Part shown: positions 3,796 through 30,864 of the stretch, one piece after another
Position numbering within the stretch: position 1 is the first letter of the stretch
Layout of the letters: every line of letters starts with the position of its first letter
DNA from: a virus
DNA: 64,000 nucleotides
Direction: 5' to 3' (one strand)
IMG/VR virus record: IMGVR_UViG_3300037010_003037
Coordinates: 1-64,000 of that record
The notes under the pieces: generated by a model
What the model was told of the DNA's origin: nothing
Databases searched by the model: none
What the model saw: the letters and a program-made list of their open reading frames with translations, nothing else
Made by a program: the position numbers and the translations under genes

Positions 3796-5409
3796 ATGAT
3801 GTCAAACAATTTTTACGCTAATGTGATGGTGGGTAACTCAGCTGAAGTTACGCCTCAGACAGAAACAATTCCTGGTCGTGAATCAGAAATGGTTAAGAAC
3901 AGTGCTGGTGGGTTCACCTTCCAGCTAGATATGTGGGGCTATTTGGACCGCTTTTTAATCCTTGGTTCTGAAAAACCGTCATATTACGTTACCGCGCAAA
4001 AGTTAACGCTCGACGCGGCAAAGAATGTTCTTGAGTGCATCAAGACCGATGGAATTAGAACAGTAAACCGCATTGTTGAAATCTCACAGAGTGGTCGCGC
4101 ACCGAAGAATGATCCAGCGGTTTTTGCTTTGGCACTTTGTGCTATCAATGGCAATGAAACAACAGTAAAAGCAGCCTATGATGCACTGCCAATGGTGTGC
4201 CGTATTGGTACGCATTTGTTTCAATTTGTCTCTACGCTGGACGTGCTTGGTAAATGGAATGCTGCTGCAAAACGTGGTATTGCAGCGTGGTACACGAAGC
4301 GCGATGAAAACCGTTTAGCCGTTCAGCTTCTAAAGTATCAATCACGAAATGGTTGGTCGCATCGAGATGTTTTGCGCCTTGCGCACATTAAGCCAGCTAA
4401 TGAGCGCCAGTCAAATATGTTCCGCTATGTTGTGAAGGGAGCAGAAAGCCTACAAGAAGGTATGAGTGTTCCTGAGCTGATTACAGCCTATGAGATGCTA
4501 AAGCGTGATCCTTCAAAGAAGAACGCGCTTAAGTTGATTAGTGAATTTAAGGATATCACATGGGAAATGTTGCCAACTGAACTACATCGCGACCGTGATG
4601 TGATGTCTGCTTTGATTCAAAACATGGGCATGACAGCGCTTATTCGCAAGCTCGGTCAGCTAACAAACATTGGAGTGATTAAGCCCATGTCTTCTGATTT
4701 GAAGACCGTAATCACGAAGCTGTCTGACGTTGAAACTATCAAGGCAAGCAGAATTCATCCAATTACAATTTTGAACGCGTTTAACCAGTATAAAAATGGT
4801 AAAGGTGACAAGGGATCACTAACATGGGAACCAGTGCAAAGAGTTCTAGATGCATTGAACGATGCGTTCTATGAATCATTCAACTATATTGAATCTACAG
4901 GACAAGGTCACTTGATTGGGGTTGATTGTTCTGGTTCAATGTTTGGTGCTAATGTCATTGGTGCTAGTAACCTAACAGCAGCTGAGGTTGCTGGTGTTAT
5001 GGCATTGGCTGTGGCAAAACGCGAACCTAATTATTGGATTGGGGGATTCAATACTAAGATGGGTGAGTTAAAGATCACACCATCAATGCGTCTTGACGCG
5101 GTTCTTAATGTTATGCGTCGTTTTTCTTGGGGTGGTACTGACTGCTCTCTGCCAATGTTGCACGCCATTGATAATAAACTTGACGGTGTTGACAAGTTTG
5201 TAGTTATCACTGATAATGAAACATGGGCAGGTAGAGTTCACCCAGTGCAGGCTTTGGGTATGTACCGGAAACGTTACGTTAAAAATGCAAAGCTGATTGT
5301 TTGCGCCACATCTGCAACGAAATTTACGATCGCTGATCCTAAGGATCCTGGGATGTTGGACACTGCAGGATTTGATTCTTCTGTTCCACAGCTAATTCAG
5401 CAATTTTGA
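3796..5409 (+). CDS. rsr: Ro60/Rsr RNA-binding ring protein (TROVE + VWA)
   Basis: A 537-residue protein, close to the length of Deinococcus Rsr. The N-terminal two thirds is an alpha-helical TROVE/HEAT-repeat domain (around 60-340), which in the family forms a ring that holds misfolded RNA ends and binds Y RNA on its outside. The C-terminal third is a von Willebrand A domain with an intact MIDAS motif DCSGS (D377, S379, S381) and downstream GGTD and TDNE segments. AAGGAG lies 6 nt before the ATG. The gene follows a structured RNA and its own promoter, and is closed by a terminator at 5433. In bacteria Ro60 acts in stress RNA decay with PNPase; in a phage it may redirect host RNA turnover (inference). 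Confidence 0.93.
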   Translation: MMSNNFYANVMVGNSAEVTPQTETIPGRESEMVKNSAGGFTFQLDMWGYLDRFLILGSEKPSYYVTAQKLTLDAAKNVLECIKTDGIRTVNRIVEISQSGRAPKNDPAVFALALCAINGNETTVKAAYDALPMVCRIGTHLFQFVSTLDVLGKWNAAAKRGIAAWYTKRDENRLAVQLLKYQSRNGWSHRDVLRLAHIKPANERQSNMFRYVVKGAESLQEGMSVPELITAYEMLKRDPSKKNALKLISEFKDITWEMLPTELHRDRDVMSALIQNMGMTALIRKLGQLTNIGVIKPMSSDLKTVITKLSDVETIKASRIHPITILNAFNQYKNGKGDKGSLTWEPVQRVLDALNDAFYESFNYIESTGQGHLIGVDCSGSMFGANVIGASNLTAAEVAGVMALAVAKREPNYWIGGFNTKMGELKITPSMRLDAVLNVMRRFSWGGTDCSLPMLHAIDNKLDGVDKFVVITDNETWAGRVHPVQALGMYRKRYVKNAKLIVCATSATKFTIADPKDPGMLDTAGFDSSVPQLIQQF

Positions 5410-6825: not shown

Positions 6826-6864
6826 ATGCATAGACATACTATCACACATAGGAGAGCGCTCATA

Positions 6865-8823
6865 ATGAATCTCAGCACAAGTTTTAAAGAATCGTTTACC
6901 AAAAAGTTTGCTAGTGATGATGAGATGCCGCTTTTGCAGTATCTTGAACTTTGCAAAACTGATAAAATGGCATATGCCAACGCAGCTGAGAGGATGCTCG
7001 CTGCTATTGGTGAACCAACGGTCATTGACACATCAACTGATCCACGACTTTCACGAATCTTTTCTAACAAGAAAATTAGGCACTACAAAGCATTTAGTGA
7101 TTTCTATGGTGCAGAAGAAGCAGTTGAACGAATGGTTGCTTATTTCCGCCACTTTGCTCAAGGTTTGGAAGAATCAAAACAAATTCTTTATCTGAAGGGT
7201 CCAGTCGGTGGTGGTAAATCCTCGCTAGTTGAGCGCTTGAAGGTGCTCATGCAGCAAAACCCAATTTATGTTCTCAAGGATCCAAATGAAAAGAATCCTG
7301 AGCTTCAGATTTCCCCTCTTTTCGAATCCCCGCTTGGTCTATTCAATGCCCAAGAGCACGGTGAAATACTTGAAGCTGAATACGGAATTCCATCTCGCTA
7401 TCTTAACACTGTTATGAGTGGGTGGGCACAACAAAAACTACGTGAGTTTGGTGGTGATGTTACAAAGTTTTCAGTTGTTCGCATCTATCCTAACAAGGAC
7501 ACACAGGTTGGCATTATGAAGGTGGAACCTGGTGATGACAACAACCAGGACGTTTCAGTTTTGGTGGGTAAAACTGATATTCGTAAGCTTGAAGTTTACT
7601 CGCAAAACCATCCATATGCTTACTCATACAGCGGTGGTTTGAATCGCACAACTCAGGGGATGATGGACTTTGCCGAAATGTTTAAAGCAAACATTAAGAC
7701 ATTGAATCCACTGCTAACTGCAACACAAGAACACAATTACAATGGTACTGAAAACGTTCCATCGATGCCTTATAATGGTATTATTTGCGCTCACTCTAAT
7801 GAAGCAGAATGGTTTACGTTCCGTAATAACAAGACAAATGAAGCTTTCCTAGATCGTGTTTATATCGTTGATGTTCCGTATTGTCTGCGGGTCGATGAAG
7901 AACAAATGATCTATGAAAAGATGCTGAAGAGCTCAAGCTTGGCAGATGCACCTTGCGCCCCGCAAACTCTAAAATCTTTGTCCGAATTTATGGTTCTAAC
8001 TCGACTCAAAGAACCAGAGAACAGTACCATCTTTGCTAAGATGAAAGTTTACAACGGTGAAAACGTTAAGGACACTATGCCAATGGCTAAGCCTTACGAA
8101 GAATACCGAGAAGCTGCAGGCAAGGATGAGGGCATGACGGGCTTGTCTACCCGCTTTGGCTTCAAGATTTTGTCTCAAACGTTTAATTTGCGCCCAGAAG
8201 AAATTCAAGCCAACCCTATTGATCTGATGTACGTGCTTGAAACTTCTTTGAAGCGAGAGCACCTTCCACAGGAAACGCTAGACACGTACATGGACTTTAT
8301 TAAGTCATGGATTCAGCCGCGTTATTTTGAGTTTATTGATAAGGAGCTTCGCATCGCTTATCTTGAATCGTACAGTGATTTTGGTCAAACCATGTTTGAA
8401 CGATATGTTCTGTTTGCAGAAGCATGGATTGATGAAACTACAGTTCGTGATCCCGAGACACATACTCTGCTGAACAGGGATAACCTAAATGCGAAACTTG
8501 AGGAAATTGAGAAAGCAGCAATGATTGCTAATCCTAAGGATTTTAGAAATGACATTGTGCATTACGTGCTGCGCTACCGCGCTAAGAATGAAGGGAAGAT
8601 GCCAGCCTGGAATTCTTACGAGAAAATCAAAAACGTTATTGAAAAGAAGATGTTTGCTGCTACAAACGAGATTATGCCAATTGTTTCGTTCTCTCCAAAA
8701 GGGTCGAGCGAAGAACAGAAGAAGCATGATGAATTTGTTGCTCGCATGCGCACCAAGGGCTATACTGATCGTCAAATTAAGATCTTGGTTGATTGGTGGG
8801 TCAATAACCGGAAATCTAACTAA
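6865..8823 (+). CDS. yeaG: PrkA/YeaG-family serine protein kinase (AAA+)
   Basis: A 652-residue protein, near the 640-650 of bacterial YeaG/PrkA. It has an N-terminal AAA+ module with Walker A GPVGGGKSS at about 112-120 and a C-terminal region of the PrkA type (long helical stretch with GMTGLSTRFGFKILS). The ATG at 6865 is chosen over one 39 nt upstream because GGAG sits at good spacing before it. In E. coli yeaG forms an operon with yeaH and is induced by starvation and RpoS; PrkA has been reported as a Ser/Thr kinase and also as a AAA protease. yeaH- and ycgB-type genes follow directly, so the phage carries the complete trio. Confidence 0.93.
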   Translation: MNLSTSFKESFTKKFASDDEMPLLQYLELCKTDKMAYANAAERMLAAIGEPTVIDTSTDPRLSRIFSNKKIRHYKAFSDFYGAEEAVERMVAYFRHFAQGLEESKQILYLKGPVGGGKSSLVERLKVLMQQNPIYVLKDPNEKNPELQISPLFESPLGLFNAQEHGEILEAEYGIPSRYLNTVMSGWAQQKLREFGGDVTKFSVVRIYPNKDTQVGIMKVEPGDDNNQDVSVLVGKTDIRKLEVYSQNHPYAYSYSGGLNRTTQGMMDFAEMFKANIKTLNPLLTATQEHNYNGTENVPSMPYNGIICAHSNEAEWFTFRNNKTNEAFLDRVYIVDVPYCLRVDEEQMIYEKMLKSSSLADAPCAPQTLKSLSEFMVLTRLKEPENSTIFAKMKVYNGENVKDTMPMAKPYEEYREAAGKDEGMTGLSTRFGFKILSQTFNLRPEEIQANPIDLMYVLETSLKREHLPQETLDTYMDFIKSWIQPRYFEFIDKELRIAYLESYSDFGQTMFERYVLFAEAWIDETTVRDPETHTLLNRDNLNAKLEEIEKAAMIANPKDFRNDIVHYVLRYRAKNEGKMPAWNSYEKIKNVIEKKMFAATNEIMPIVSFSPKGSSEEQKKHDEFVARMRTKGYTDRQIKILVDWWVNNRKSN

Positions 8824-8851
8824 TAAACTTAACTAAGATCTGAAGGACATC

Positions 8852-10156
8852 ATGCCATTTATTTTCATTGATAGAAGAAAGGCAGGTGGCGGTAAATCAA
8901 CTAATAATCGTCAGAAGCTTATTCGGCGTGTTAGGGGATTTATTAAAACATCTGTTCCACAAAACATTGGAGCTGGTGGTGTTAGTGGCACTAATGCAAA
9001 AAGCATGAGTCCAGTCAAAGTTACTGGCGAGGCGCTTGAAGAACCATTCTTCGCTTATGCAAATGACGGCAATGAAGTATCTGTCGTTATTGGTAATGAT
9101 CAGTATGATCGCGGTGATGAGATAGAATTTCCAGAAGAACAAGCAGCAGGTTCTGGCGCAGGGCCTGGAGAACAAGGTGAAGATGATTTTATTGTGAACG
9201 TGGCTCGTTCTGAATTCCTTGATGTCTTCTTTGAGGACTGTGAGCTTTATCTAACACACGAGCGCTTTACAGAAAAACTTGATAATAAGCACCAACCTGC
9301 TGGTTTTTCTACTACTGGTAACCCATCTCAGCTTAGTATTATTCGCACGTACAAGCAATCATTGGGCCGTCGTTGGGCTTTAATGAAGCCTTACAAGGAA
9401 GAACTTGAACAGCTTCGTGAGGAAATTAAGACAGTTGAGGAGAACAGTGAGCGTTGGAAAGAGATTGTTGCGCGTATTGAACAACTTCTTGGTAAGCTAT
9501 CATTTCTAGATTCATTTGATAAGTCTGATTTGCGCTATCGTAAGAAGGAAGCTAAACCCCTAAAGACTGTTGACGCTGTTCTTATCATGCTCATGGACAT
9601 TTCTGGATCTATGGGGAAAGAAGAAAAAAGCATAGCGCGGCGGTGGTTTGCTTTGCTTTATGAATTCATTAAACGTAAATATCCAACGGTTGAATTAAGA
9701 TTCATTGCTCACACTGATGAAGTGTTTGAGATGAATGAAGATGACTTCTTCAGTACTCGCATCAACGGTGGTACTCAAGTGTCTGTTGCCCTTAATCATA
9801 TTAGTAAAATGATTATTGAGCAATATGATCCAAATCAAACTAACATAATCGTCTGCCATGCGTCAGATGGTGACAACTGGTATGATGATAATGAAGCTGT
9901 AATTGACGCGATGATAGGGAAAGGAAACCTTATGAACAGGTGTAGCATGTTCAGTTATGTTGAAGTTGGAAATGAGAATTTTATAACGAACAGTGCTGGT
10001 GTACCAATAGTTATTCGCACTAACACTAATCTTTGGGAAACTTATGATGCTGTTCGCTTGAAACAACCGCCACATAAAGTCTCTTTAGCAAGAATTGGAA
10101 CACCAGATGATTGCTATCCTGTTTTCAAAAAAGTTTTTAGCAAAAAATCTAAATGA
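8852..10156 (+). CDS. yeaH: YeaH/YhbH-family protein (DUF444, VWA-like)
   Basis: A 434-residue DUF444 protein. The start is a basic region (FIDRRKAGGGKSTNNRQKL); a central coiled segment of about 60 residues (EELEQLREEIKTVEEN) leads to a VWA fold with MIDAS DISGS (D249, S251, S253) and then FIAHTDE and NGGTQVS strands. YeaH is the conserved partner of the PrkA/YeaG kinase. A GAAGGA site precedes the ATG, and its stop overlaps the start of the SpoVR-like gene by four bases (ATGA), so the three proteins are translated as a unit. Confidence 0.93.
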   Translation: MPFIFIDRRKAGGGKSTNNRQKLIRRVRGFIKTSVPQNIGAGGVSGTNAKSMSPVKVTGEALEEPFFAYANDGNEVSVVIGNDQYDRGDEIEFPEEQAAGSGAGPGEQGEDDFIVNVARSEFLDVFFEDCELYLTHERFTEKLDNKHQPAGFSTTGNPSQLSIIRTYKQSLGRRWALMKPYKEELEQLREEIKTVEENSERWKEIVARIEQLLGKLSFLDSFDKSDLRYRKKEAKPLKTVDAVLIMLMDISGSMGKEEKSIARRWFALLYEFIKRKYPTVELRFIAHTDEVFEMNEDDFFSTRINGGTQVSVALNHISKMIIEQYDPNQTNIIVCHASDGDNWYDDNEAVIDAMIGKGNLMNRCSMFSYVEVGNENFITNSAGVPIVIRTNTNLWETYDAVRLKQPPHKVSLARIGTPDDCYPVFKKVFSKKSK

Positions 10157-11649
10157 CAGAACCACTAATCACATCACGTACTGACTGGACTCCAGAGCTA
10201 CTACAAGAAATTTATAGTCATATTGAAGATGTGGCTTTAAATGATCTGAAGCTAGATGTTTATCCTAACCAAATTGAAGTAATCTCTGCAGAGCAGATGA
10301 TCGATGCATATGCATCAGTTGGTTTACCTGTAATGTACCCACATTGGTCGTTCGGAAAACAATTTTTGTCTAACTGGACAAAATACCAGAAGGGGCGAAT
10401 GGGTCTTGCATATGAGATTGTTATCAACAGTAATCCATGCATTAGCTACTTGATGGAAGAGAATAATGCTGTGATGCAGGCTCTTGTCATCGCCCACGCG
10501 GCGTTTGGGCATAATCACGTCTTTAAGAACAATTACATGTTTAAGGAGTGGACAGCAGCTGGTTCAATTATCGATTACTTGATCTTTGCAAAGACATTTA
10601 TTCGTGACTGTGAACTGCGCTATGGTCAAGATGAAGTTGAACTGCTTTTAGATGCCGCGCACGCGCTAGCACCTCATGGAGTTGATAAGAGAAAACGCAA
10701 GCACAAAAAGAAGCTGACAAAGGAAGAAGAAGCAGCAAAGCTTGTGTTAGATGCTGATGAAGAGCAGTTAAGTCTTGACATTATCATTAAGTCAACATCT
10801 AAGAAGATTGAAGAGAAAAAAGATGAACAGGACGATGATTTAGTCGGAGATGAAGAAAATTTGCTTTACTTTCTAATGAAGTTCTCTCCAACTCTTAAAG
10901 AATGGCAGCGAGAGGTTTTGAGAATCGTTTACAAGATTCATCAGTACTTTTATCCTCAAAGCCAAACTAAAGTCTTAAATGAAGGGTTCGCGACATTCAC
11001 GCACTTCTACATTATGGATGAGCTTGAAAAGCGGGGTTTGATTTCAGCTGACGCGCAGATCTCGTGGTTGCACTCACACTCGAATGTTATATACCAGCCA
11101 ACATATAAAAGTAAGCATTATGATGGTGGTTTTAATCCATACGCTTTAGGTTTTGCAATTCTGAAAGATATACGCCGTATCTGTGAAAATCCAACTGAAG
11201 AAGATAAAGAATGGTTTCCTAACCTAATTGGTATGGAATGGCGGGATGCTATTAAGGATGCAGTTGCTGAATACCGTGATGAAAGCTTTATTCAACAATT
11301 TCTTTCTCCTAAGGTTATTCGTGATTGGAATCTTTTCATTGTTGAACATCACAAAACATATGGTTATGTCAGTGAAATTAGTGATGATAAAGGTTATAGA
11401 AATATTCGAAATGCCCTATCAGCTAATTACGCCACTATCAATCGTATTCCTGATATTGTTGTAAAGTCAGCACGAATGAAAGGAGATAGAACTCTAACTC
11501 TTGAGTACCATCCATACAAAGGAAGATCATTACATGGTCCTTTTGCAAAGAAAACCATAGAGTTCGTTAAACTTCTATGGGGTTATGATGTAGAGATAGT
11601 ACAAACAAATAAAGATAGAATGGAAACAGTCATAGTAAAGGCAAAATAA
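10153..11649 (+). CDS. ycgB: SpoVR/YcgB-family protein
   Basis: A 498-residue SpoVR-like protein, the usual length. Visible family blocks include MYPHWSFGKQF, the GLAYEIVINSNPCISYLMEENN stretch around 95-115, AHAAFGHNHVFKNNYMF, and the late VLNEGFATFTHFYIM and NPYALGF segments; the His/Glu-rich blocks look like a metal site. A Lys-rich insert lies near 177-190. The molecular role of SpoVR/YcgB is unknown; in bacteria it is co-regulated with yeaGH, in Bacillus it affects the spore cortex. Third gene of the operon, ended by the terminator at 11651. Confidence 0.93.
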   Translation: MTEPLITSRTDWTPELLQEIYSHIEDVALNDLKLDVYPNQIEVISAEQMIDAYASVGLPVMYPHWSFGKQFLSNWTKYQKGRMGLAYEIVINSNPCISYLMEENNAVMQALVIAHAAFGHNHVFKNNYMFKEWTAAGSIIDYLIFAKTFIRDCELRYGQDEVELLLDAAHALAPHGVDKRKRKHKKKLTKEEEAAKLVLDADEEQLSLDIIIKSTSKKIEEKKDEQDDDLVGDEENLLYFLMKFSPTLKEWQREVLRIVYKIHQYFYPQSQTKVLNEGFATFTHFYIMDELEKRGLISADAQISWLHSHSNVIYQPTYKSKHYDGGFNPYALGFAILKDIRRICENPTEEDKEWFPNLIGMEWRDAIKDAVAEYRDESFIQQFLSPKVIRDWNLFIVEHHKTYGYVSEISDDKGYRNIRNALSANYATINRIPDIVVKSARMKGDRTLTLEYHPYKGRSLHGPFAKKTIEFVKLLWGYDVEIVQTNKDRMETVIVKAK

Positions 11650-16391: not shown

Positions 16392-16479
16392 TCATCGTTT
16401 GACATCATTTTAGAATGATGCATGATTCAATGGTGGTTAAATAATATGTCATATCAAATTTTACATGAGGAATCCTCAA

Positions 16480-17268
16480 ATGCTTCCACAAATCCGAACT
16501 GCAGATATTCGTCAAGAATTCAAATCACTCCTATCTGCTGGTAAATTTACGTCTGTTAATCGTGAAGCAACAATGACGAGTTTAACAGGCGACACGACAA
16601 TAGAAATTGTTAGTGCCTCCTTCATCGCTGATGAAGAATCAATCTTTGGTGAAGTTAACTGGGATTACGTTAAGCGAGAAGAAGAGTGGTATAACTCTAT
16701 GTCCCTTAACATAAATGACATTCCCGGTGGCCCTCCACAAATTTGGAGAGCCGTTGCTGACAAAGATGGATACATTAACTCAAATTATGGTTGGTGTATC
16801 TATTCACCAGAAAATGGTTTTAATAAGTCTGTACGTGAAGTAACGAGTCAATATGTAAGAGTCCGCGCAGAACTCAAAACAAATCCAGAATCTCGTAGAG
16901 CTATCATGATCTATACTCGTCCATCCATGTGGGTAGATTACCATAAAAATGGGCGTTCAGATTTTATGTGTACTAATTCCGTGCAATACCTTATTCGTGA
17001 TGGCCAACTGCATGCAATAGTGCAGATGCGCAGCAATGACTCTATCTTTGGTTATCGTAATGATAGAGCATGGCAACAGCATGTTCTTGAAAAGCTTGCT
17101 GCTGAGTTAAACATCCCTGCTGGTAATTTGTATTGGAATGTTGGTTCACTTCACATATACGCGCGCCATTACTATCTGGTAGATCACTTTGCAAAAACAG
17201 GAGAATTAAACATTTCAAAAGCTGACTATAAAAAGCTTTATCCAGACTCTCCATACTTGCTAGTGTAA
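16480..17268 (+). CDS. 42: dCMP hydroxymethylase (T4 gene 42 type)
   Basis: A 262-residue member of the thymidylate synthase fold that matches T4 gp42 block by block from memory: the SASFIADEESIFG region, SNYGWCIYSPENG, SRRAIMIYTRPSMW, the nucleophile segment DFMCTNSVQYLIRD (C164), RSNDSIFGYRND with D195 where thymidylate synthases carry Asn, and WNVGSLHIYARHYYLVDH. The Asp at that site marks cytosine rather than uracil preference, so the enzyme converts dCMP to 5-hydroxymethyl-dCMP using methylene-tetrahydrofolate. The ATG at 16480 has GAGGA at proper distance; an earlier in-frame ATG (16465) does not. The helicase, a kinase and the glucosyltransferase lie downstream. Confidence 0.93.
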   Translation: MLPQIRTADIRQEFKSLLSAGKFTSVNREATMTSLTGDTTIEIVSASFIADEESIFGEVNWDYVKREEEWYNSMSLNINDIPGGPPQIWRAVADKDGYINSNYGWCIYSPENGFNKSVREVTSQYVRVRAELKTNPESRRAIMIYTRPSMWVDYHKNGRSDFMCTNSVQYLIRDGQLHAIVQMRSNDSIFGYRNDRAWQQHVLEKLAAELNIPAGNLYWNVGSLHIYARHYYLVDHFAKTGELNISKADYKKLYPDSPYLLV

Positions 17269-20015: not shown

Positions 20016-20594
20016 ATGTCTAAAAATATATTCATTATAGAGGGGTTAGACAGATTAGGAAAATCCACTCTTATTCAGGGCATTCGAGATGAGCTTGGTT
20101 ATTATGAAGTAATTCACTTTAATAAACCACAACGCTTAGCCATCTATGATGGTAAAGCTACAACAGAAGGTGAAGTAAACAAGCTGCAAAGTTTTTATTA
20201 TTACCAATATACTAGCTTTGAAAACATGATGCTCTTAATGCGCAGTAATGCTAACATCATTTTTGACAGAGCCCATTTAGGTGAAGTTGTTTATTCACCA
20301 TTGTATCGTAACTATTCTGGTGACTATGTTTTTGAACTAGAAAAACAATATAGCATAGGTGATCTTGAAACTGTTAGGCTGATTCTTTTAGTAGAAGACT
20401 TTGACAAGGCAAAACATTTCGTTGATGATGGTAACAGTCTTGGACCTACTGAAAAGCGTTTTGAAGAACAAGAACGATTTATTTCTGCATTTCACAGATC
20501 ATTAATTAAAGACAAGAGAATTATCTGTGTAACTGACACAACTTTTGGTGGATTTAAAAATAAGAAAGACATTTTAAAGGAAGCACTTGTATGA
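20016..20594 (+). CDS. P-loop nucleoside-monophosphate kinase (thymidylate-kinase-like)
   Basis: A 192-residue protein with Walker A IEGLDRLGKSTL at the N-terminus, a DRAHLGEVVY segment near 87-96 like the DR(Y/F/H) motif of deoxynucleoside and thymidylate kinases, and a LILLVED strand. It is unlike T4 gp1 in sequence but could supply the same step, phosphorylating dTMP or hydroxymethyl-dCMP. Its stop overlaps the glucosyltransferase start (ATGA), which ties it to DNA modification. Confidence 0.8.
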   Translation: MSKNIFIIEGLDRLGKSTLIQGIRDELGYYEVIHFNKPQRLAIYDGKATTEGEVNKLQSFYYYQYTSFENMMLLMRSNANIIFDRAHLGEVVYSPLYRNYSGDYVFELEKQYSIGDLETVRLILLVEDFDKAKHFVDDGNSLGPTEKRFEEQERFISAFHRSLIKDKRIICVTDTTFGGFKNKKDILKEALV

Positions 20595-21715
20595 AAGTAG
20601 CAGTAATTAAACTTGGTGCACGAATTTCATTTAACGCTAATGATACTTCTGGTGGTAATGGTGAGGCGCGTTCAATTATCAAAATGCTTCATAAGGGCGG
20701 GGCAGAAGTTAACATTTATACTAAAATTTTGAAAAAGGACAATCTTCTTCCAGAGTATAAATGGTTTGATCTTAGTGATCCTACTACTCTTAGTAATGGT
20801 GTTAATGCCGATGCGCTTATTGTTATAAATGGCAACGTAAACTTTTTTGGTGGGGCAGAAGATCGTGAACAGTTGTTAAACTACGTAATCATCAATGAAT
20901 TCAAGGGACCGGTATTCTACATTTTATGTGATCCAGAACTAACACTAACACAAGTTTGGCCATCTGTCTCAAAGAAAGAATGGGCATCTAACTGGTCGCA
21001 AGAACAATTGCATATTAGCCGATCTGACATCATTTATTTTTCCCAACCATATGATGTTGACAAAGTTCTTGAAGATATTAAGAAAAGGAATAATGAAGTT
21101 ATTCCTAATAAGATTGTTCATTTTCCATTTGAACAATTTCCATGCTTGAATGAACGTTTACCATTTAATCCTAACCCTGAAGTTGATTTGTCATATGGTG
21201 GTACGATGCGAGGTGGAAGACGCATGAAAAAAATGGTAAAGTTTTATTTTAATCATCCAGAAGATATCTCAGTTGAGATGTTCGGTAAAATTGATTTAGA
21301 TGATTTTAAGCCTAATTTAGTTTTTGGTAAGCGTCCACCTACATTTACAGGTCCTGTTCGGTATGATGAGATGCTTTCAAAGATGAATAGTGCGATGTCT
21401 CATTGCGTCATCGGAGATCCTTGGTATGAGGAAATTAATGACATGGCACAGCGCGCGTATGAATCAATTTGGTCCTCTGTGGTTACCTTCATTGATTCTG
21501 ACTTGGACAAATTGCGTAGGGTTTATAGTAGAGATAGAACACTATCAGATTTTTTGTATGTTTCAGATCGTGCAGAATTGTCCGAAAAAATACTGCTTTT
21601 GAAGCATGATACGGAACTTCGAAAGCTTATCATTCAAGATCAATTTAATGCAATTAACTTTGATGCAGAAAAGTATTGTACTAGCTTCGTTAATCAGATC
21701 GAGCAGATGAGTTAA
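20591..21715 (+). CDS. bgt: DNA beta-glucosyltransferase (T4 beta-gt type, GT63-like)
   Basis: A 374-residue protein aligning along its length with T4 beta-glucosyltransferase (351 aa) from memory: MKVAVIKLG, INGNVNFFGGAED, FYILCDPELTLTQVWPSV followed by EWASNWSQEQL, HFPFEQFP, the UDP-glucose-binding YGGTMRGGRRMKKMVKFYF, MFGKID, PPTFTGPV, and a C-terminal ALxxL-type helical end. The T4 enzyme transfers glucose from UDP-glucose to hydroxymethylcytosine in DNA, protecting it from host restriction. With a gp42-like hydroxymethylase 3.3 kb upstream, glucosylated hmC DNA is the simplest prediction. Confidence 0.92.
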   Translation: MKVAVIKLGARISFNANDTSGGNGEARSIIKMLHKGGAEVNIYTKILKKDNLLPEYKWFDLSDPTTLSNGVNADALIVINGNVNFFGGAEDREQLLNYVIINEFKGPVFYILCDPELTLTQVWPSVSKKEWASNWSQEQLHISRSDIIYFSQPYDVDKVLEDIKKRNNEVIPNKIVHFPFEQFPCLNERLPFNPNPEVDLSYGGTMRGGRRMKKMVKFYFNHPEDISVEMFGKIDLDDFKPNLVFGKRPPTFTGPVRYDEMLSKMNSAMSHCVIGDPWYEEINDMAQRAYESIWSSVVTFIDSDLDKLRRVYSRDRTLSDFLYVSDRAELSEKILLLKHDTELRKLIIQDQFNAINFDAEKYCTSFVNQIEQMS

Positions 21716-21725
21716 TCCCGTAAAT

Positions 21726-21741
21726 ATCACGGGCCCGTGAT
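21726..21741. promoter_or_regulatory. 16-bp perfect GC-rich palindrome between bgt and the CofD-like gene
   Basis: ATCACGGGCCCGTGAT is a perfect palindrome in an AT-rich genome, 21 nt before the CofD-like ATG. CCCGT at 21718-21722 can pair alternatively with its left half. It is not followed by a T run, so an operator or RNA attenuation element is more likely than a terminator. Confidence 0.4.
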
Positions 21742-21762
21742 CGTGGTAATAAGGAGAAATGA

Positions 21763-23676
21763 ATGAATATTGTTATCTTAGCTGGTGGAACCGGCTCAAT
21801 TGCTCTTCAGACTGGATTGTACAACCTACTTGACGCTCATCTTGATGGTATTGATACCAAAATTTTGGTTAATGGATATGATAATGGTTTGAGTACTGGA
21901 GCAGTAAGGCAAGTAATGAATGGCCGCATTCTTGGCCCCTCTGACATTAGAAAGAACCAAACTACTCGTTTGGCGCTTGAGCATCCTGATTCACCATGGA
22001 TAAAGTTCCTTAATATTCGCTTTACGATTCCTTCATCAGATGTAAAAAACTTTTGCCTTATGAGAATTGCAGAGCTTGAAAATGCTTTGCAAAACAAGAA
22101 ACACGACACATTTCGGGCAGCTCAAAATGACAGCTTTGAACACGCGGATGATTCAGCTTTCAAAGCTAATATCTTGAGAGAAGCCATTGAAGAGTATTTT
22201 CGTTCACCAATTGCAACAAAGATTGATTACAATGACTTCTCATTAGCAAATATCATTTATGCCGGGTTAGCCAAGGTAAATGGGTATTCATTGCGTTCAG
22301 CAGCTAGAATCATGGCATCATTGATGGGCATTAAGGACAATGTCATTCTCAATGATGATACCTCATTGTTCCTAGGAGCCATCACGAAGAGTGGCAAGCG
22401 AATTACTGATGAAGGTGATATTGTTTCATGGGGCAATCATGATGATCCTTTTGTAGACATCTTCTTCACAGATGCTGAAGGTAATAATGCTGTTCCAGTT
22501 CTTTGTAATGAAGCTCGTGAAGCCCTATTAAATGCAGATCTTATCATTCTTTCGTCAGGTACCCAATGGTCTTCACTTATCCCAACATATGCTTCTGTTG
22601 GCTTTAAGGAAGTTATGTATGATGGTGTTAAGGGTGATGTTTTAATGGTCATGAATCGCAGACCAGATAAAGACTCTCCTGGGCAGGGGGCTTCCGAAAT
22701 TATTGATATTTTAGTACCTCGATATTTTAAGGAAGGTCAGCTCAATGTGATTCTTGATGAATCTGCCGATGATATTATGAAAATCATTGATGAAAAAGCA
22801 AAAGCAAAGATCACAAGCGCTGAATGGTTTAAGATGTCTGCTCCAGGTGAACAGCGAGATACTAAAACTCATGATTCACGGCGGCTAGCTATGGCAGTCG
22901 GTTATACGTATTTCAAGGACTTTGTCAACAGCGATTATTTTGTATTCGACTATGATGATACGCTTGTTGGTCGTGGTAACATCTACCCTCTCTCATCTAA
23001 GAGCAATGTCCAAGCAATCTGTGAGCTAAACACGACAAAGAAAATCGCAATCTGCACCGGTAACTCCATCAAAGCTATAAAAATTCATAATTCAAACTAT
23101 TATGGTTTAAGCACGTACAAAACATCTTTCACTCCTTTGGCTGTTTATGCTGATGGTGGAGTGAATAAGTATCTTTATGATACGCGTTTTCCAGATGGTA
23201 GTGATGATGGGATTTCCCACAAATTTATCGAATGTATCGACAAAAGTGTTTTGCTGGAAAAGGATGGTGCTTATGGAATTAATAGCATTATCAGCTCTCT
23301 GAAAGAACATCACATTCCTCTCTCAAAGATTGAGAATCGAGGTGATGTTATGATCACAATTAAACCAATTGATGAAGAATATCGACCAATGATAATTGAG
23401 CTAATCAAGTTACTCATTCAAGATACTGGTTTAGTTGTAAAGGCTTCTGGTCGAACAACAATTGAGATTCACCATCCTTCACTTTCAAAAGCGGCAGCTA
23501 TTCAGTACATAAAAAACACCGAGAAGCCATCAACTATCACTTATGTCGGTGATGAATTTTATGGTGGTAATGATGAATGTGTGAAATCTATTCCTGGTAT
23601 TCGTTGCTTGCACGTTACAAATCCGGCTAAAACAGCGTTCTTTATTCTTACTCTTACTGGTTATCGTCCTATCTAA
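21763..23676 (+). CDS. CofD/YvcK-like protein fused to a HAD-type phosphatase
   Basis: A 637-residue two-domain protein. Residues 1 to about 330 match the CofD/YvcK (UPF0052) fold: ILAGGTGSIALQTGL, the NGYDNGLSTGAVRQ loop, LGPSDIR, SLANIIYAGL, and NADLIILSSGTQWSSLIP. CofD transfers a 2-phospholactyl group to a flavin-type acceptor from a nucleotide-activated donor; YvcK acts in wall and carbon metabolism. Residues about 385-637 form a HAD hydrolase: FDYDDTL nucleophile motif, ICTGNS, a Lys in SLSKAAA, and YVGDEFYGGND. I know of no such fusion with a settled function. It is followed at once by a nucleotidyltransferase (start overlapping the stop), suggesting a shared pathway. Confidence 0.85.
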   Translation: MNIVILAGGTGSIALQTGLYNLLDAHLDGIDTKILVNGYDNGLSTGAVRQVMNGRILGPSDIRKNQTTRLALEHPDSPWIKFLNIRFTIPSSDVKNFCLMRIAELENALQNKKHDTFRAAQNDSFEHADDSAFKANILREAIEEYFRSPIATKIDYNDFSLANIIYAGLAKVNGYSLRSAARIMASLMGIKDNVILNDDTSLFLGAITKSGKRITDEGDIVSWGNHDDPFVDIFFTDAEGNNAVPVLCNEAREALLNADLIILSSGTQWSSLIPTYASVGFKEVMYDGVKGDVLMVMNRRPDKDSPGQGASEIIDILVPRYFKEGQLNVILDESADDIMKIIDEKAKAKITSAEWFKMSAPGEQRDTKTHDSRRLAMAVGYTYFKDFVNSDYFVFDYDDTLVGRGNIYPLSSKSNVQAICELNTTKKIAICTGNSIKAIKIHNSNYYGLSTYKTSFTPLAVYADGGVNKYLYDTRFPDGSDDGISHKFIECIDKSVLLEKDGAYGINSIISSLKEHHIPLSKIENRGDVMITIKPIDEEYRPMIIELIKLLIQDTGLVVKASGRTTIEIHHPSLSKAAAIQYIKNTEKPSTITYVGDEFYGGNDECVKSIPGIRCLHVTNPAKTAFFILTLTGYRPI

Positions 23677-24467
23677 TGAAAGCAGATTTATTCATTATTG
23701 CGGCAGGTGTCGGCTCACGCATGAACTCTAACATACCAAAGGCGCTAGTACCTATAGTTGATGAGCCATGCTTGACAACAACCCTTCAACAGATCGCGTA
23801 CAAGTTTAAAACTGTGCACGTGGTAACAAACATTCTCGTTCAAAACCAATGGACAGCATACTTTAAGAACCTAGCTGAGAAATATCCTGAGCTGACAAAA
23901 AATCTCATTAATGTTCCAATCAACTCAGGGCTTGGTGATGGTCATGCAACGATGATAGGCCTTCGATACGCTAGTGAGAATGGAACACTTGCTTCAGATG
24001 AGGTCACTGTCGCGTGGGGAGATGTGTTTTTCCCCAACGCTGAGATAATTGATGAACTTTTTTCTAATGAGCTTCAAGGATCTGGTCTTTTGCCTGCTGT
24101 TAAGGAGAACAATCCATATGTTTCTCTTTTGGTTGATGAAAAAATGCGATGCATTTCAGCTGATTTTTCAAAGTATGGCGAGAAACACCCGACTGGTTTT
24201 CATGATCAATCGGTTTTTAGGTTTAACAGCAGTCATCTTTATGACTCTCTTACGACAATACACGCTGCGTTTTGGAAGGGCGGTCGGTACATTACACCAG
24301 GTGGGGAGCTTTCACTTCTCTACACTTTCCATCATATGTACAACATCAACCGCGCTGCATATGTGTACGAAACAGATTATCCAACCTTAAGCTTCAACAC
24401 ATCAGAAGAAGTTGCAACAATTCAGCAGGAGATTTCTAAAAAATGGAAAGCACGCCACCAATCCTAA
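23676..24467 (+). CDS. Sugar-nucleotide-type nucleotidyltransferase (NTP_transferase fold)
   Basis: A 263-residue protein beginning with the pyrophosphorylase signature AAGVGSRMNSNIPKALVPI, then GLGDGHATMIGLRYA and VAWGDVFFP, the last giving the metal-binding Asp. This is the GlmU/RmlA/MobA fold that joins an NTP to a sugar phosphate or similar phosphorylated compound. The acceptor is unknown. Its ATG overlaps the CofD-HAD stop, and its 3' end overlaps the guanylate-kinase-like gene, so all three are co-translated. Making an activated donor for DNA modification or for the CofD-like transferase is plausible (inference). Confidence 0.85.
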   Translation: MKADLFIIAAGVGSRMNSNIPKALVPIVDEPCLTTTLQQIAYKFKTVHVVTNILVQNQWTAYFKNLAEKYPELTKNLINVPINSGLGDGHATMIGLRYASENGTLASDEVTVAWGDVFFPNAEIIDELFSNELQGSGLLPAVKENNPYVSLLVDEKMRCISADFSKYGEKHPTGFHDQSVFRFNSSHLYDSLTTIHAAFWKGGRYITPGGELSLLYTFHHMYNINRAAYVYETDYPTLSFNTSEEVATIQQEISKKWKARHQS

Positions 24468-25129
24468 TCACATTAACATCTCCAACAGCTGCTGGAAAAT
24501 CATACCTGTTCAACTATATTCGTGATGTAGCGAAACTTCCCTGTTTGATCTCAACTACAACTCGTTTACCACGTGAAGGTGAGATTGATGGAGTTGATTA
24601 TTATTTCATTGATTTAGAAGAATCCAAGAGACTTGAAGAAGCAAATGAATTTGCTGAACTAGCCATTTATCGTGGAGTTCGCTACGGCGTTACAAAGAAA
24701 GAATGGAATAACAAGCTTCAGCCAGGAAAGATTGCGTTCTTAATTGTAGAACCAAGTGGTCTTGATCATTATGTAAAACCGGCTCTTGATATTGGTGCTA
24801 TTTGGTTGAAGTATTTCATTAATACGGATCTTCAAGTACGCATGGAACGATTTATTGATCGTATGGTTAAGGATGTTCGTAGCGCTATTAGTGTTGATAT
24901 TCTAAATGGAAAAATGTATTCGCACGTGAAAGAGCCTTCAGAAAAAACAATGAAAACAATCTTGTCATATTTTGATCGTCAACGAGCGATGCTTACTGAA
25001 GAAACACGGTGGGAAGCTAAAACTAACTGGACACGAATCATTTCTGGTGAAAATTCACCAGAAGAAAACTTAATGATCATTCAGAAAGATATTAAGGAAG
25101 CAGTTGAGCGACACATGAATCATGTGTGA
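24443..25129 (+). CDS. Guanylate-kinase-like P-loop kinase
   Basis: A 228-residue protein with P-loop TSPTAAGKSYL, then STTTRLPREGEIDGVDYYF, the GMP-binding signature of guanylate kinases (Arg-Glu-Gly-Glu, Gly-Val-Asp-Tyr), and YRGVRYGVTKKEW. The second half is longer and less typical than Gmk. It may phosphorylate GMP/dGMP or a modified nucleotide. It overlaps the preceding nucleotidyltransferase by 25 nt. Confidence 0.85.
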   Translation: MESTPPILITLTSPTAAGKSYLFNYIRDVAKLPCLISTTTRLPREGEIDGVDYYFIDLEESKRLEEANEFAELAIYRGVRYGVTKKEWNNKLQPGKIAFLIVEPSGLDHYVKPALDIGAIWLKYFINTDLQVRMERFIDRMVKDVRSAISVDILNGKMYSHVKEPSEKTMKTILSYFDRQRAMLTEETRWEAKTNWTRIISGENSPEENLMIIQKDIKEAVERHMNHV

Positions 25130-25179: not shown

Positions 25180-25683
25180 ATGTATAATAACGCAAATCAA
25201 TCCCAAATTGGTACTAAGAAAGAATCTACGAATACATGTGATATGATTGGTGATATCTATGATATGCACACTAAATTTGGTGTGCGTGAAATTGTTAAAA
25301 CTTTTGATAAAGAAAAGCTTCAAAGCTTCTTGAAATTTCGCCTAGATTTTCTAAAAGAAGAATTGCTTGAAGCTTATGAAGCTGCTGGCTACAAAGTAGA
25401 TGTTAATATTGAAAAAGTAGCAGAACCTCAGCTAGATCGTGCAGAAGATGTTGTTGATGCAATGATTGATCTGTGCGTTGTTGCAATTGGAACATTGGAC
25501 GCGTTTCAAGTTGACACAGCTGAAGCATGGAATCGTGTCCACACAAAGAACATGGAGAAGGAACCTGGTATTAAACCATCGCGTCCTAATCCATTAGGTC
25601 TTCCAGATTTATGCAAACCGATTGGATGGACCGCACCTACCCATGCTGATAACGTGGGGCTTCTCGCAAAGGCATTTGAATAA
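25180..25683 (+). CDS. MazG-like all-alpha NTP pyrophosphohydrolase
   Basis: A 167-residue protein with the helical metal-binding pattern of all-alpha NTP pyrophosphatases: FLKEELLEAYEAA then RAEDVVDAMIDLCVVAIGTL. Family members hydrolyse (d)NTPs to monophosphates. In T4 the dCTPase gp56 belongs to the same broad fold and keeps unmodified dCTP out of hmC DNA; the location after the modification genes makes a dCTPase-like job possible, though general house-cleaning cannot be excluded. Confidence 0.8.
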   Translation: MYNNANQSQIGTKKESTNTCDMIGDIYDMHTKFGVREIVKTFDKEKLQSFLKFRLDFLKEELLEAYEAAGYKVDVNIEKVAEPQLDRAEDVVDAMIDLCVVAIGTLDAFQVDTAEAWNRVHTKNMEKEPGIKPSRPNPLGLPDLCKPIGWTAPTHADNVGLLAKAFE

Positions 25684-26117: not shown

Positions 26118-27611
26118 ATGAAACTTATTGATTTATGTGAGTCAAAAATTAGCGGTAGCAAGGCGCATCTTGCAATGAGCGCTATGGTATCGTACATACA
26201 GCGTAAGCTAGGTCAAAAGCTTATTAAAATTCCAGGTGTTGAGCACTTCAAGAATTCTCGTGAAAGTGGGTATGGGTATCGTTATGTCTTTAATGGCTCA
26301 ACGAAAATGATACGCTTCAATTGGGCATCAGAGCCAAAAACTGGAATGACAGCAGAAATCCAGTCAATTGATATCTTTGATGGAAAGCATGATCCATCTT
26401 TTAACATTAAAACTAGTGGGGTATCATTAGTTAAATCACTACCGGCACTTGTAGCAGCGCTTGAATCACCAACAGTTGGAAAAAGAACAGTTTTTCCTGT
26501 AGATGCTTCTGAGGCTCTTACTGAACAAGTACTTCGTGAAGCAAAGCGTGATGACTTTACAGCAGAAGAAGCGCTCTCTGACTTTTTGTCACAGCTCATT
26601 AAAGGTAATACATTAACACGCTCTGATTTTATTGGGCGTTATCACATTATAAATGTTGGTATTTTTGACACCATCGTTCGTGATTTCAAGGATAAATTTG
26701 AAATATCTGGAAAAAGAGTTGGCCTAGGTGGTAATGTTAATGTAAATGATCTAAAGAAAGAAATTCTTGGTAAAGCAGGTGTTTTAGTTATCACTAAAGG
26801 TGGATCTAATGAAGCGTATGAGCAAACTCGTGCTGAAATACAGGCGCAAGAAGCTGCTCAGCGCCATGAACATGTATCATACTCAGACTCAATTGAGCAC
26901 CTTGAAGGACTAGTAACTGGTATTGTCAAAGGCGCATTCAATGCTTTGTTTGTTACAGGAAGAGGTGGAACAGGAAAAACACAAACAGTTGAAAGAGTTT
27001 TAGAATCACATGGTTTAACTGATGGTCAAGGATATTTCAAGAACACTGGTTCTGCGTCGGCAGCCGGTATATATGCTCTACTTTACCATCACCGCGATAG
27101 CATTATTCTCTTTGATGATTCGGATGGAGCTTTAGCAGATCAAGATGCTAGAAACATCATTAAGGCAGCTACTGATACTAAGAAGAAGCGCAAGTTAGTT
27201 TGGAACAAGAAATCATCATTTATCTTTGATCCAGACAAAGAGGATCCAGAAGATTATGAAGATGATCCAACGATGGCACCAAAGTACTTTGATTTTTATG
27301 GGCGCATTATCTTTATCTCTAACCTATCTTTAGACAAGTTAGACCCTGACGGCGCGCTTAGAACTCGTGCGTTTATCATCAACATTAATCCAACAGATGA
27401 AGAAATGTTCGAATACATGGAGAAAATTCTGTTTGATATTAAGCTTGAAGAAGGGCTGACACTTTCTAAAGAAGAGAGATACAAAGTGCTCGATGTTGTA
27501 AAATCCTCAAAACGCAAGGGTGAAGTGTCTCTTAGAAAGCTTGTGCGTGCTCTCAACCTCGCTGCTTCAGGCGCACCTAACTGGGAAAAATTGGTCACGC
27601 TTTACTGCTAA
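26118..27611 (+). CDS. AAA ATPase with capsid-targeting-like N-terminus
   Basis: A 497-residue protein. It opens MKLIDLCE|SKISGSKAHL, a short segment ending in LxE. The N-terminal 180 residues are unrecognised; around 230 a coiled region begins, then an AAA core from about 275: Walker A VTGRGGTGKTQT, Walker B IILFDDSD, a sensor-like FISNLSLD, and an arginine-finger-like ALRTRAF. The AAA core is a paralogue of the shorter protein at 29899, sharing GGxGKT, FDDxD, the FISNL strand and an RxRA segment in order. A late-promoter motif upstream and the N-terminus suggest packaging in the head; substrate unknown. Confidence 0.75.
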   Translation: MKLIDLCESKISGSKAHLAMSAMVSYIQRKLGQKLIKIPGVEHFKNSRESGYGYRYVFNGSTKMIRFNWASEPKTGMTAEIQSIDIFDGKHDPSFNIKTSGVSLVKSLPALVAALESPTVGKRTVFPVDASEALTEQVLREAKRDDFTAEEALSDFLSQLIKGNTLTRSDFIGRYHIINVGIFDTIVRDFKDKFEISGKRVGLGGNVNVNDLKKEILGKAGVLVITKGGSNEAYEQTRAEIQAQEAAQRHEHVSYSDSIEHLEGLVTGIVKGAFNALFVTGRGGTGKTQTVERVLESHGLTDGQGYFKNTGSASAAGIYALLYHHRDSIILFDDSDGALADQDARNIIKAATDTKKKRKLVWNKKSSFIFDPDKEDPEDYEDDPTMAPKYFDFYGRIIFISNLSLDKLDPDGALRTRAFIININPTDEEMFEYMEKILFDIKLEEGLTLSKEERYKVLDVVKSSKRKGEVSLRKLVRALNLAASGAPNWEKLVTLYC

Positions 27612-27788: not shown

Positions 27789-28121
27789 ATGAACGAAAAA
27801 AACACTCAGAAACGTAAGCGCCGTTCAGATCGTATGCACATTGTTTACGTGCTGATTAATACCATTACAGGTGAGCATTATGTTGGTATTACAGCATGCA
27901 TTGATCGATCAGGCAAGGAAACACTTGCAGCTAGGTTCTCACGTCATGTCGGTCGTGCCTTTAACCAGAACAAGGACTGGGCTCTGTGTAAATCAATTCG
28001 GGAATATGGTCCTGAAGTTTTTGTTCCTATAATTTTTGACTTTGTTCGTGGTAAAGCAGCAGCACACGCGATGGAAAATGAATTACGTAAATCCGGTGAT
28101 TTCAAACTCAACACATTCTAA
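27789..28121 (+). CDS. GIY-YIG endonuclease-like protein
   Basis: A 110-residue protein whose core begins IVYVLINTITGEHYVGITA, the two-strand GIY-YIG signature, followed by AARFSRHVGRA with a conserved Arg and a late Glu in MENELRK, together a full nuclease core. Such small proteins are homing nucleases or repair-type nucleases. The -10 box ends 7 nt before this ATG, so the mRNA would be leaderless; a second ATG at 27834 (MHIVYV), directly before the first strand, may be the true start. Confidence 0.75.
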   Translation: MNEKNTQKRKRRSDRMHIVYVLINTITGEHYVGITACIDRSGKETLAARFSRHVGRAFNQNKDWALCKSIREYGPEVFVPIIFDFVRGKAAAHAMENELRKSGDFKLNTF

Positions 28122-29898: not shown

Positions 29899-30864
29899 AT
29901 GACTAATGTTGCAGTTCTTTCTTTTGAATCACGTACTGGTAAATGGATGGCGTCCTACGCTGGGAAGATTTTGGCAGCTTCCTCTAACAAAGAATATGTA
30001 GTCAATAACATTAGGGCCGGGCGCTGTACAAAAGCCAAAGCTTTCAATGTTACTGATGTTCGTGAGGTTGGTGAAACTAATGTGAACACAGCAACAGGCA
30101 AAACTGAAAAAATAGATCGTTTTGGAATCAACGAGCGCTTTGATTTCCTCACAGATTTTGTCAGTATGATCGCAGATCGTACTTGTCCCTCTTTGGTAGT
30201 AACTGGAGAAGGGGGGCTTGGCAAAACCTTCACCGTGAACAAAGCGCTGAATGATGCTGGTCTCAAGAATTCAGCAGACATGGTAGGTTTTGGCTCTGAC
30301 AGCGATCTCTTTGAGGAGCAATCTCGCAAGCTCTATAGCGTAGTGAAAGGTTACTCTACGGCAAAAGGTTTGTACCGCACTCTTTATGAGAATCGGAATC
30401 GCATCATCGTGTTTGATGACTGTGACTCTGTTCTCAAAGATCCAGTCGCCTTGAACCTTCTCAAAGGCGCTCTTGACTCTTATGATCGACGTATCATCTC
30501 GTGGAATGCTGAAACGTTTGGTGATGATGATCTGCCACGCTCGTTCGAGTTCAAAGGTGGTGTTATCTTCATCTCTAACCTGCCAATCTATAAGGTTGAT
30601 CAAGCTATCCGCTCTCGCGCTATCTGCGTTGATCTCTCAATGACCGCAGATCAGAAGATCGAGCGCATGAATGCCATCATCAAATCCGATGATTTCATGC
30701 AAGATTATGACCTTGAAATCAAGGAAGCAGCGCTGAAGTTCCTTAATGAGATGAGAGATTCTGCTAAGGAATTGAATCTTCGCACACTCATCTCCACTAT
30801 TAAGGTTGCTGCTCGTGGTGGCGATTGGAAACGTCGGGCAGAATATCTGTTGACATCTGTTTAA
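29899..30864 (+). CDS. AAA ATPase, paralogue of the 26118 protein
   Basis: A 321-residue protein with Walker A VTGEGGLGKTFTVN at about 99-112, Walker B IIVFDDCDS, sensor strand GVIFISNLP and the Arg-rich QAIRSRAI. It shares the order of these blocks with the C-terminal half of the 26118 protein but lacks its N-terminal extension, including the LxE segment. Residues 1-75 are a small unrelated domain. The extended -10 promoter suggests expression early in infection, unlike its paralogue. Confidence 0.78.
   Translation: MTNVAVLSFESRTGKWMASYAGKILAASSNKEYVVNNIRAGRCTKAKAFNVTDVREVGETNVNTATGKTEKIDRFGINERFDFLTDFVSMIADRTCPSLVVTGEGGLGKTFTVNKALNDAGLKNSADMVGFGSDSDLFEEQSRKLYSVVKGYSTAKGLYRTLYENRNRIIVFDDCDSVLKDPVALNLLKGALDSYDRRIISWNAETFGDDDLPRSFEFKGGVIFISNLPIYKVDQAIRSRAICVDLSMTADQKIERMNAIIKSDDFMQDYDLEIKEAALKFLNEMRDSAKELNLRTLISTIKVAARGGDWKRRAEYLLTSV

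Follow-up and report, generated by a model that had tools for sequence, protein, structure and literature searches.

A gene cluster linking a DNA beta-glucosyltransferase to a CofD/YvcK-like–HAD fusion in a virus: a possible pathway of DNA hypermodification

Genes at the locus and the hydroxymethylcytosine context

We consider a cluster of five genes in a 64,000-nucleotide stretch of viral DNA (positions 1 to 64,000 of the IMG/VR virus record IMGVR_UViG_3300037010_003037, called here the window), which is part of a record of 147,697 bases, the remainder of which was also covered by our family searches. The five open reading frames (ORFs), at 20016-25129, all lie on the + strand, are each supported by Pfam, and encode, in order, a thymidylate-kinase-like protein, a DNA beta-glucosyltransferase (BGT, gene bgt), a fusion of a CofD/YvcK-like domain with a HAD domain (CofD-HAD), a nucleotidyltransferase (NTPT) and a guanylate-kinase-like protein. 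The ORFs overlap at three of the four junctions, the exception being a gap of 47 nt between bgt and the CofD-HAD gene, so that the original prediction of five co-oriented and mostly overlapping genes with named domains is borne out. A nucleotide search with the cluster against a phage collection returned no close relatives. We propose that the cluster may encode a pathway of DNA hypermodification beyond glucosylated 5-hydroxymethylcytosine (5hmC), in which a group X would be transferred from a nucleotide-linked donor (NDP-X) with the participation of a mutase-like HAD domain; judged from the sequences, the chance of this appears to us about even.

The first two genes and a further one nearby belong to the known chemistry of 5hmC. 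The bgt product (20591-21715) matches PDB 1bgt with E 3e-35, scores 74 bits against a cut-off of 27 with Pfam T4-Gluco-transf (PF09198, E 1e-20) and is called beta-glucosyltransferase by PHROGs with 7e-53. It can be aligned to T4 BGT over most of its length, with the GG..R...R segment kept and with the Asp kept that structure 1nzd has as Ala, and it is by both its family score and this catalytic Asp a DNA beta-glucosyltransferase of the T4 type. The kinase (20016-20594) is a thymidylate-kinase-like P-loop protein (Pfam Thymidylate_kin 6e-6, just below the cut-off; PHROG 761, 9e-10) and a candidate hydroxymethyl-dNMP kinase, the gene being mostly present in those loci that have a hydroxymethylase.

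The original prediction had assumed a 5hmC context, and the gene that provides it lies outside the cluster, at 16465-17268 on the + strand. Its product, a dCMP hydroxymethylase of the T4 gp42 type that would make the 5hmC precursor, has 1b49 as its best PDB match (phmmer, E 1.2e-79, versus 1e-12 for thymidylate synthase), and the D of its FGYRNDRAW segment aligns with the Asp of T4 FGFRNDYAW that determines hydroxymethylase specificity. Being closer to hydroxymethylases than to thymidylate synthases and having the specificity Asp, it belongs to the T4-type enzymes; an ordinary thymidylate synthase is encoded separately, at 42985-43911. The wider gene context supports, as a prediction from sequence, that the DNA of this virus contains 5hmC.

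The CofD-HAD fusion and the genes beside it

The fusion ORF (21763-23676, + strand) was recognised by a Pfam CofD match of 4e-16 together with a weak HAD match. Its CofD/YvcK-like domain (21763-22917), a putative phosphotransferase, passes the gathering score of the CofD superfamily (PF01933, 59.6 bits versus 30), but within the superfamily it is not close to the F420 enzyme. In the PDB profile comparison the YvcK-type structures 2ppv/2hzb are matched with E of about 1e-34 and CofD 3c3d with 0.0025, and in the AlphaFold2 model of the fusion (pLDDT 89) the CofD half matches YvcK best, with TM 0.71-0.79 as compared with 0.55-0.66 for CofD/FbiA, normalised by target. The F420 CofD model TIGR01819 gives 13.9 bits or no match against a cut-off of 257 (E 0.02 or worse), and identity as an F420 enzyme was rejected for this reason. 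The YvcK/GlmR model TIGR01826 is not reached either (49.6 and 71.5 bits versus 196), and here the domain is fused to HAD. The CofD-type identity that had been predicted holds, then, at the level of the superfamily, with YvcK/GlmR and not F420 CofD as the nearest relative.

Among 36 sequences, the invariant residues of the CofD half are G8, G9, G11, N37, D40, G42, G46, R49, D61, R63, K64, E217, D259, G266-T267, N298, D302 and D304. In FbiA, which is a CofD, the metal is held by Asp45 and Asp57 in the GDP-bound state, and it was proposed that the acceptor hydroxyl attacks the beta-phosphate and GMP leaves (PMC7253369). By motif matching, and not by superposition, D40 and D61 are candidate equivalents of these two aspartates.

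The C-terminal HAD-IIB domain of the fusion (22918-23676) has intact catalytic motifs (D396xD398xT400, K576 and G596-D-E598), with D396, D398, T400, G563, K576, E598 and G602 invariant in 36 of 36 sequences. Its PDB profile matches are led by alpha-phosphoglucomutase (4bnd, 5e-14) and phosphomannomutase PMM2 (2e-12), both above the Cof phosphatases, and its fold also matches phosphomannomutase and alpha-phosphoglucomutase, so that by homology, fold and DxD motif it stands nearest to the hexose-phosphate mutases of this alpha type. The removal of phosphate by the HAD domain, as first suggested, is consequently one of two readings. It is also noted that the HAD subclass depends on the context: the fused HAD-IIB is found in phages and Firmicutes and HAD_2 elsewhere, and for separate HADs, which are of the other subclass, the best models are of the beta-phosphoglucomutase family (8e-36 and 7e-20).

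The NTPT (23676-24467, + strand) matches Pfam NTP_transf_3 with 2e-8, and its AlphaFold2 model (pLDDT 93) has the GlmU/RmlA fold, with Foldseek matches to GlmU, RmlA and HddC at E 1e-14 to 1e-16, while its best PDB sequence matches are ribitol-5-phosphate cytidylyltransferases. The resemblance to UGPase, RmlA and GlmU is a fold match only, the scores of less than 40 bits being far below the equivalog cut-offs. The motif GxHDQS is invariant and common to the phage and bacterial forms. No match to the CofC family PF01983 was found, the matches being to NTP_transf_3, GlmU and IspD, and CofC identity was rejected on this ground. As for the predicted making of an activated donor by this protein, the gene does stand beside the fusion, but its product is GlmU/IspD/RmlA-like and not CofC-like.

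These results bear directly on an explanation modelled on F420 biosynthesis and close to the original idea. In it, the substrate activated by the NTPT is a phospho-acid or the phosphate of a polyol (for example phosphoglycerate, 2-phospholactate or glycerol phosphate), the CofD domain transfers it to the DNA sugar and HAD, as a phosphatase, trims the terminal phosphate. The similarity to CofC/CofD (FbiD/FbiA) is that a nucleotidyltransferase and a CofD-fold transferase with two metal-binding aspartates make a phosphodiester on a hydroxyl, and that CofD/FbiA moves phospho-acids from GDP-linked donors (PMC7253369); the ribitol-5-phosphate cytidylyltransferase matches of the NTPT and the intact HAD catalytic residues are consistent with it as well, and two HAD subclasses in one role are permitted for a phosphatase, where there are no anomer constraints. 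By contrast, the CofD domain is nearer to YvcK and has no TIGR01819 match, the NTPT has no CofC match, the HAD domain, here fused, is nearer to mutases than to phosphatases, and no F420 context is present. We consider this explanation unlikely.

The last gene of the cluster (24443-25129, + strand) encodes an accessory guanylate-kinase-like protein, which passes Pfam Guanylate_kin (8e-15) but not TIGR03263 (73 bits versus 160). The guanylate-kinase fold of the original prediction is thus present but does not belong to the core, because the gene is restricted to the window clade, locus L040 and phage LR756500 (18 of 40 loci). A guanylate kinase as core GMP recycler coupled to CofD was rejected since the gene is missing in most of the divergent loci.

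Recurrence of the module in viruses and bacteria

A profile search of viral contigs gave 40 loci. After exclusion of one short partial match and of the window's own sequence, addition of LR756500 and collapse at 90% identity, 29 lineages were obtained, which with the window make 30 distinct viral lineages with CofD-HAD. The NTPT adjoins CofD-HAD in 29 of them, where the two ORFs mostly overlap or nearly touch (in LR756500 they are 1.2 kb apart), and a T4-type bgt is present in 24, about 1.5 kb or less upstream except in LR756500 (5.9 kb); in these lineages with bgt, the other CofD-HADs are about 26-60% identical to that of the window. The joint recurrence of bgt and CofD-HAD in another 23 distinct viral lineages, all but one of these also with the NTPT, shows that the genes do not stand together by chance. 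In INPHARED, one full-length CofD-HAD was found, in the 462-kb phage LR756500, which has gmk, CofD-HAD, NTPT, a kinase fragment, the hydroxymethylase and bgt on one strand within 10 kb. Matches in Listeria phages cover half of the query at 24%. A CofD match on an Acaryochloris plasmid, with neither NTPT nor HAD annotated beside it, is uninformative.

The module is also found with a different DNA glycosyltransferase. In three lineages without bgt (L045, L055 and L057), a TET-associated glycosyltransferase (TAGT) lies near the module (PF20691, 2.6e-24 to 9e-35), and in L052, also without bgt, two TAGT genes lie in another part of the 352-kb record. In the tree, L043, with bgt, and L045, with TAGT, are sisters (support 100/99), and therefore the module was retained while the DNA glycosyltransferase was exchanged. 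That the nucleotidyltransferase/CofD/HAD unit travels with DNA glycosyltransferases and keeps residues of catalytic type is as expected for hypermodification. The phage TET/TAGT systems of cytosine modification thus share with the present one the neighbourhood of CofD-HAD and NTPT in these three lineages, while no CofD component of them was found described in the literature searched.

In bacteria, the full-length CofD-HAD fusion is present in seven Firmicutes metagenome-assembled genomes, with the NTPT directly upstream in each. Where the flanks are long enough, the neighbours, with translations read by eye, include glycosyltransferases, polyprenyl-phosphate sugar transferases, flippases and LicD, and from these the loci are exopolysaccharide clusters. 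The fusion is rare: in the class of one of its carriers, G002, it occurs in 1 of 391 genomes, which is G002 itself. Related units have other arrangements. In actinobacterial glycan clusters of Microbispora and relatives, GT2, CofD, HAD and NTPT stand in a row, with the HAD separate from CofD and beta-phosphoglucomutase-like; in Propionibacterium, CofD is fused to HAD_2 and the NTPT to GT4; and in Lachnotalea and Anaerocolumna CofD and HAD lie beside a polyketide synthase and a glycosyltransferase. What points most strongly to the role is that nucleotidyltransferase, CofD and HAD recur as a unit with a glycosyltransferase next to them, and the fusion in bacterial exopolysaccharide clusters points to a glycan-decorating module common to phages and bacteria. 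The co-occurrence of CofD-HAD with bgt, which had been suggested as a check, is hence seen in 24 of the 30 viral lineages, but the fusion is not confined to bgt phages; and the finding that had been named as speaking against the idea, CofD-HAD genes occurring widely without modification genes, is in part what the exopolysaccharide clusters present.

Such a distribution invites the main rival explanation, which limits HAD and NTPT to supplying BGT or TAGT with UDP-glucose or another NDP-sugar; the YvcK-like domain would sense UDP-sugar and not be a catalyst, and the DNA would carry plain glycosyl-hmC. It would account for the association with any glycosyltransferase, and it agrees with the nearness of HAD to alpha-phosphoglucomutase and phosphomannomutase, of the NTPT to GlmU and RmlA, and of the CofD-like domain to YvcK, since YvcK/GlmR binds UDP-GlcNAc and regulates GlmS (PMC7525490). 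Against it, T4 lacks the module, as do over 100 further phage records with bgt, and the explanation gives no reason why the YvcK-like domain is constant across the phage, exopolysaccharide and polyketide synthase contexts while the HADs are exchanged. The low equivalog scores of the NTPT and its invariant motif shared with the bacterial forms also speak against it. We give it a rather low probability.

If the target were not DNA but, for instance, the host surface or a nucleotide pool, and the module stood beside bgt merely through the same expression class, this would agree with the presence of the same genes in bacterial exopolysaccharide clusters and with two viral lineages that lack both bgt and TAGT. 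The tight coupling to bgt in 24 lineages and the switch to TAGT elsewhere would be unexpected from shared expression alone, and we regard such a target as very improbable.

A candidate route to a phosphate-linked modification

For hypermodification, the following pathway can be proposed. The hydroxymethylase makes hm-dCMP, which kinases would convert to hm-dCTP, and BGT glucosylates 5hmC once the DNA has been replicated; the steps of hydroxymethylase and BGT are well supported by homology. The NTPT would couple an NTP with a phosphorylated small molecule to give the NDP-X donor. At the CofD-like domain, with a metal on the two invariant aspartates, the hydroxyl of the DNA sugar would attack the beta-phosphate of NDP-X, by which NMP would be released and X be held on the DNA sugar by a phosphodiester, and the HAD domain would prepare or finish X. 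In the version that we favour, HAD would convert a sugar-6-phosphate to a sugar-1-phosphate, the NTPT would make from it an NDP-sugar and CofD would transfer the sugar-1-phosphate; three features together favour a sugar as X: the HADs resemble mutases, the NTPT resembles GlmU and RmlA, and relatives of the CofD domain bind UDP-sugars. In bacteria, the acceptors of the counterpart would be exopolysaccharides or glycosylated natural products. The enzyme set probably places one more group, linked through phosphate, on a DNA-borne sugar, where we infer the acceptor, the donor and the catalysis.

There is a precedent for such a product. In the DNA of phage SP-15, one base bears glucose and a phosphodiester-linked glucuronolactone, so such a base is compatible with phage life, and its candidate genes encode, among others, a sugar uridylyltransferase, a phosphomannomutase and glycosyltransferases (PMC5977210). 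SP-15 differs in that its base is uracil-based (a hypermodified thymine, DHPU), whereas here it would be hmC with a T4-type BGT, and in that its phosphotransferase candidate is a CDP-glycerol glycerophosphotransferase and not CofD-like. The T4 system of hmC glucosylation (gp42 and BGT) shares the hydroxymethylase and BGT families, with key residues kept, but T4 and the other INPHARED bgt phages are without CofD-HAD and its NTPT, LR756500 alone having both. YvcK/GlmR (UPF0052), the UDP-sugar binder nearest by sequence and fold, differs from the domain here in the HAD fusion, in the nearly constant company of the NTPT and glycosyltransferases and in the score of 50-72 bits versus 196. The 5hmC carbamoyltransferase phages found by MetaGPA likewise put an extra group on hmC beside a dCMP hydroxymethylase, but with other chemistry and another enzyme, CofD being unmentioned in the main text (PMC8670742). 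In the open-access literature, to which our search was confined, no account linking CofD to phage genomes or DNA modification was found. DNA hypermodification itself is already known; it is the enzyme class within it that appears to be unreported, and with it apparently a new way of chemical disguise for viral DNA.

Several points weigh against this proposal. The CofD-like domain is nearer to YvcK/GlmR, a UDP-sugar-binding regulator that is not known to be a catalyst, than to CofD, and YvcK keeps similar two-aspartate motifs, so that the conservation of the aspartates is no proof of catalysis. The cap arginines R526 and R541, which in phosphomannomutase hold the distal phosphate, are kept in many members but not in all; they were dropped as proof of mutase activity for this reason, and that activity of HAD is putative. 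Alpha- and beta-type mutases would moreover yield anomers that differ, and one type of donor would not account for this. At one locus, L056, no NTPT is detectable, and in the records of L059 and L061 neither bgt nor TAGT was found.

It may still be, though we put this somewhat below an even chance, that CofD-fold transfer of a sugar-1-phosphate or another phospho-group onto the glucose of glucosyl-5hmC is a widespread undescribed class of modification giving negatively charged, phosphodiester-linked side chains, and that its module has passed between phages and the exopolysaccharide and natural-product pathways of bacteria, which would make unrecognised phosphodiester-decorated glycans by the same CofD chemistry. 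If this is true, one branch of the CofD/YvcK superfamily would have a function assigned to it, phage DNA would have a new modification chemistry, a charged phosphodiester on a DNA-borne sugar, and there would be an enzymatic route to a kind of modification whose chemistry has been known since 1981 from SP-15. Phosphodiester decorations would be predicted in the exopolysaccharides of gut bacteria, and the charge on the side chains could act as a barrier to restriction, Cas and hmC-specific defence enzymes.

Other genes at the loci

Beside the module in L059 and L061 lies an unclassified protein of about 300 amino acids, glycosyltransferase-like by eye, which may be a new DNA glycosyltransferase, and the module is preceded there (L059 7444-9987, L061 7122-9986) by a queuine tRNA-ribosyltransferase-like protein (PHROG 887, 2e-34 in L061) and an SDR. 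A protein of one shared type stands just before TAGT/CofD in L045 (6746-7246), L055 (2398-2844) and L057 (8387-9151); in L057 it makes up the C-terminal region of a ParB-like protein. In the polyketide synthase clusters of Lachnotalea and Anaerocolumna (L024 8973-9830, L027 9111-10004), the protein directly upstream of CofD has by eye an HFHTQ motif and may be a HIT/GalT-like nucleotidyltransferase that takes the place of the NTPT; this GalT/HIT-like reading had no support from Pfam, NCBIfam or PDB and was not used as evidence.

In the window, the cluster is followed on the + strand by a gene for a MazG-like nucleotide pyrophosphohydrolase (25180-25683; Pfam PRA-PH 1e-6, PHROG 671 2e-16), a candidate dCTPase that would keep plain C out of the DNA. 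Two paralogous ATPases of PHROG 1250, whose function is not known, are encoded at 26118-27611 and 29899-30864, and between them a small ORF (27789-28121) has a GIY-YIG-like start (HIVYVLINTITGEHYVGIT) and is by eye probably a homing-type endonuclease. At 3796-5409 there is a TROVE/Ro60-like RNA-binding protein (5e-53) with a vWA domain (5e-35). Finally, the adjacent PrkA (AAA_PrkA, 7e-160), DUF444/YhbH (3e-103) and SpoVR (2e-147) genes at 6826-11649 are a complete bacterial PrkA-YhbH-SpoVR set on a phage.

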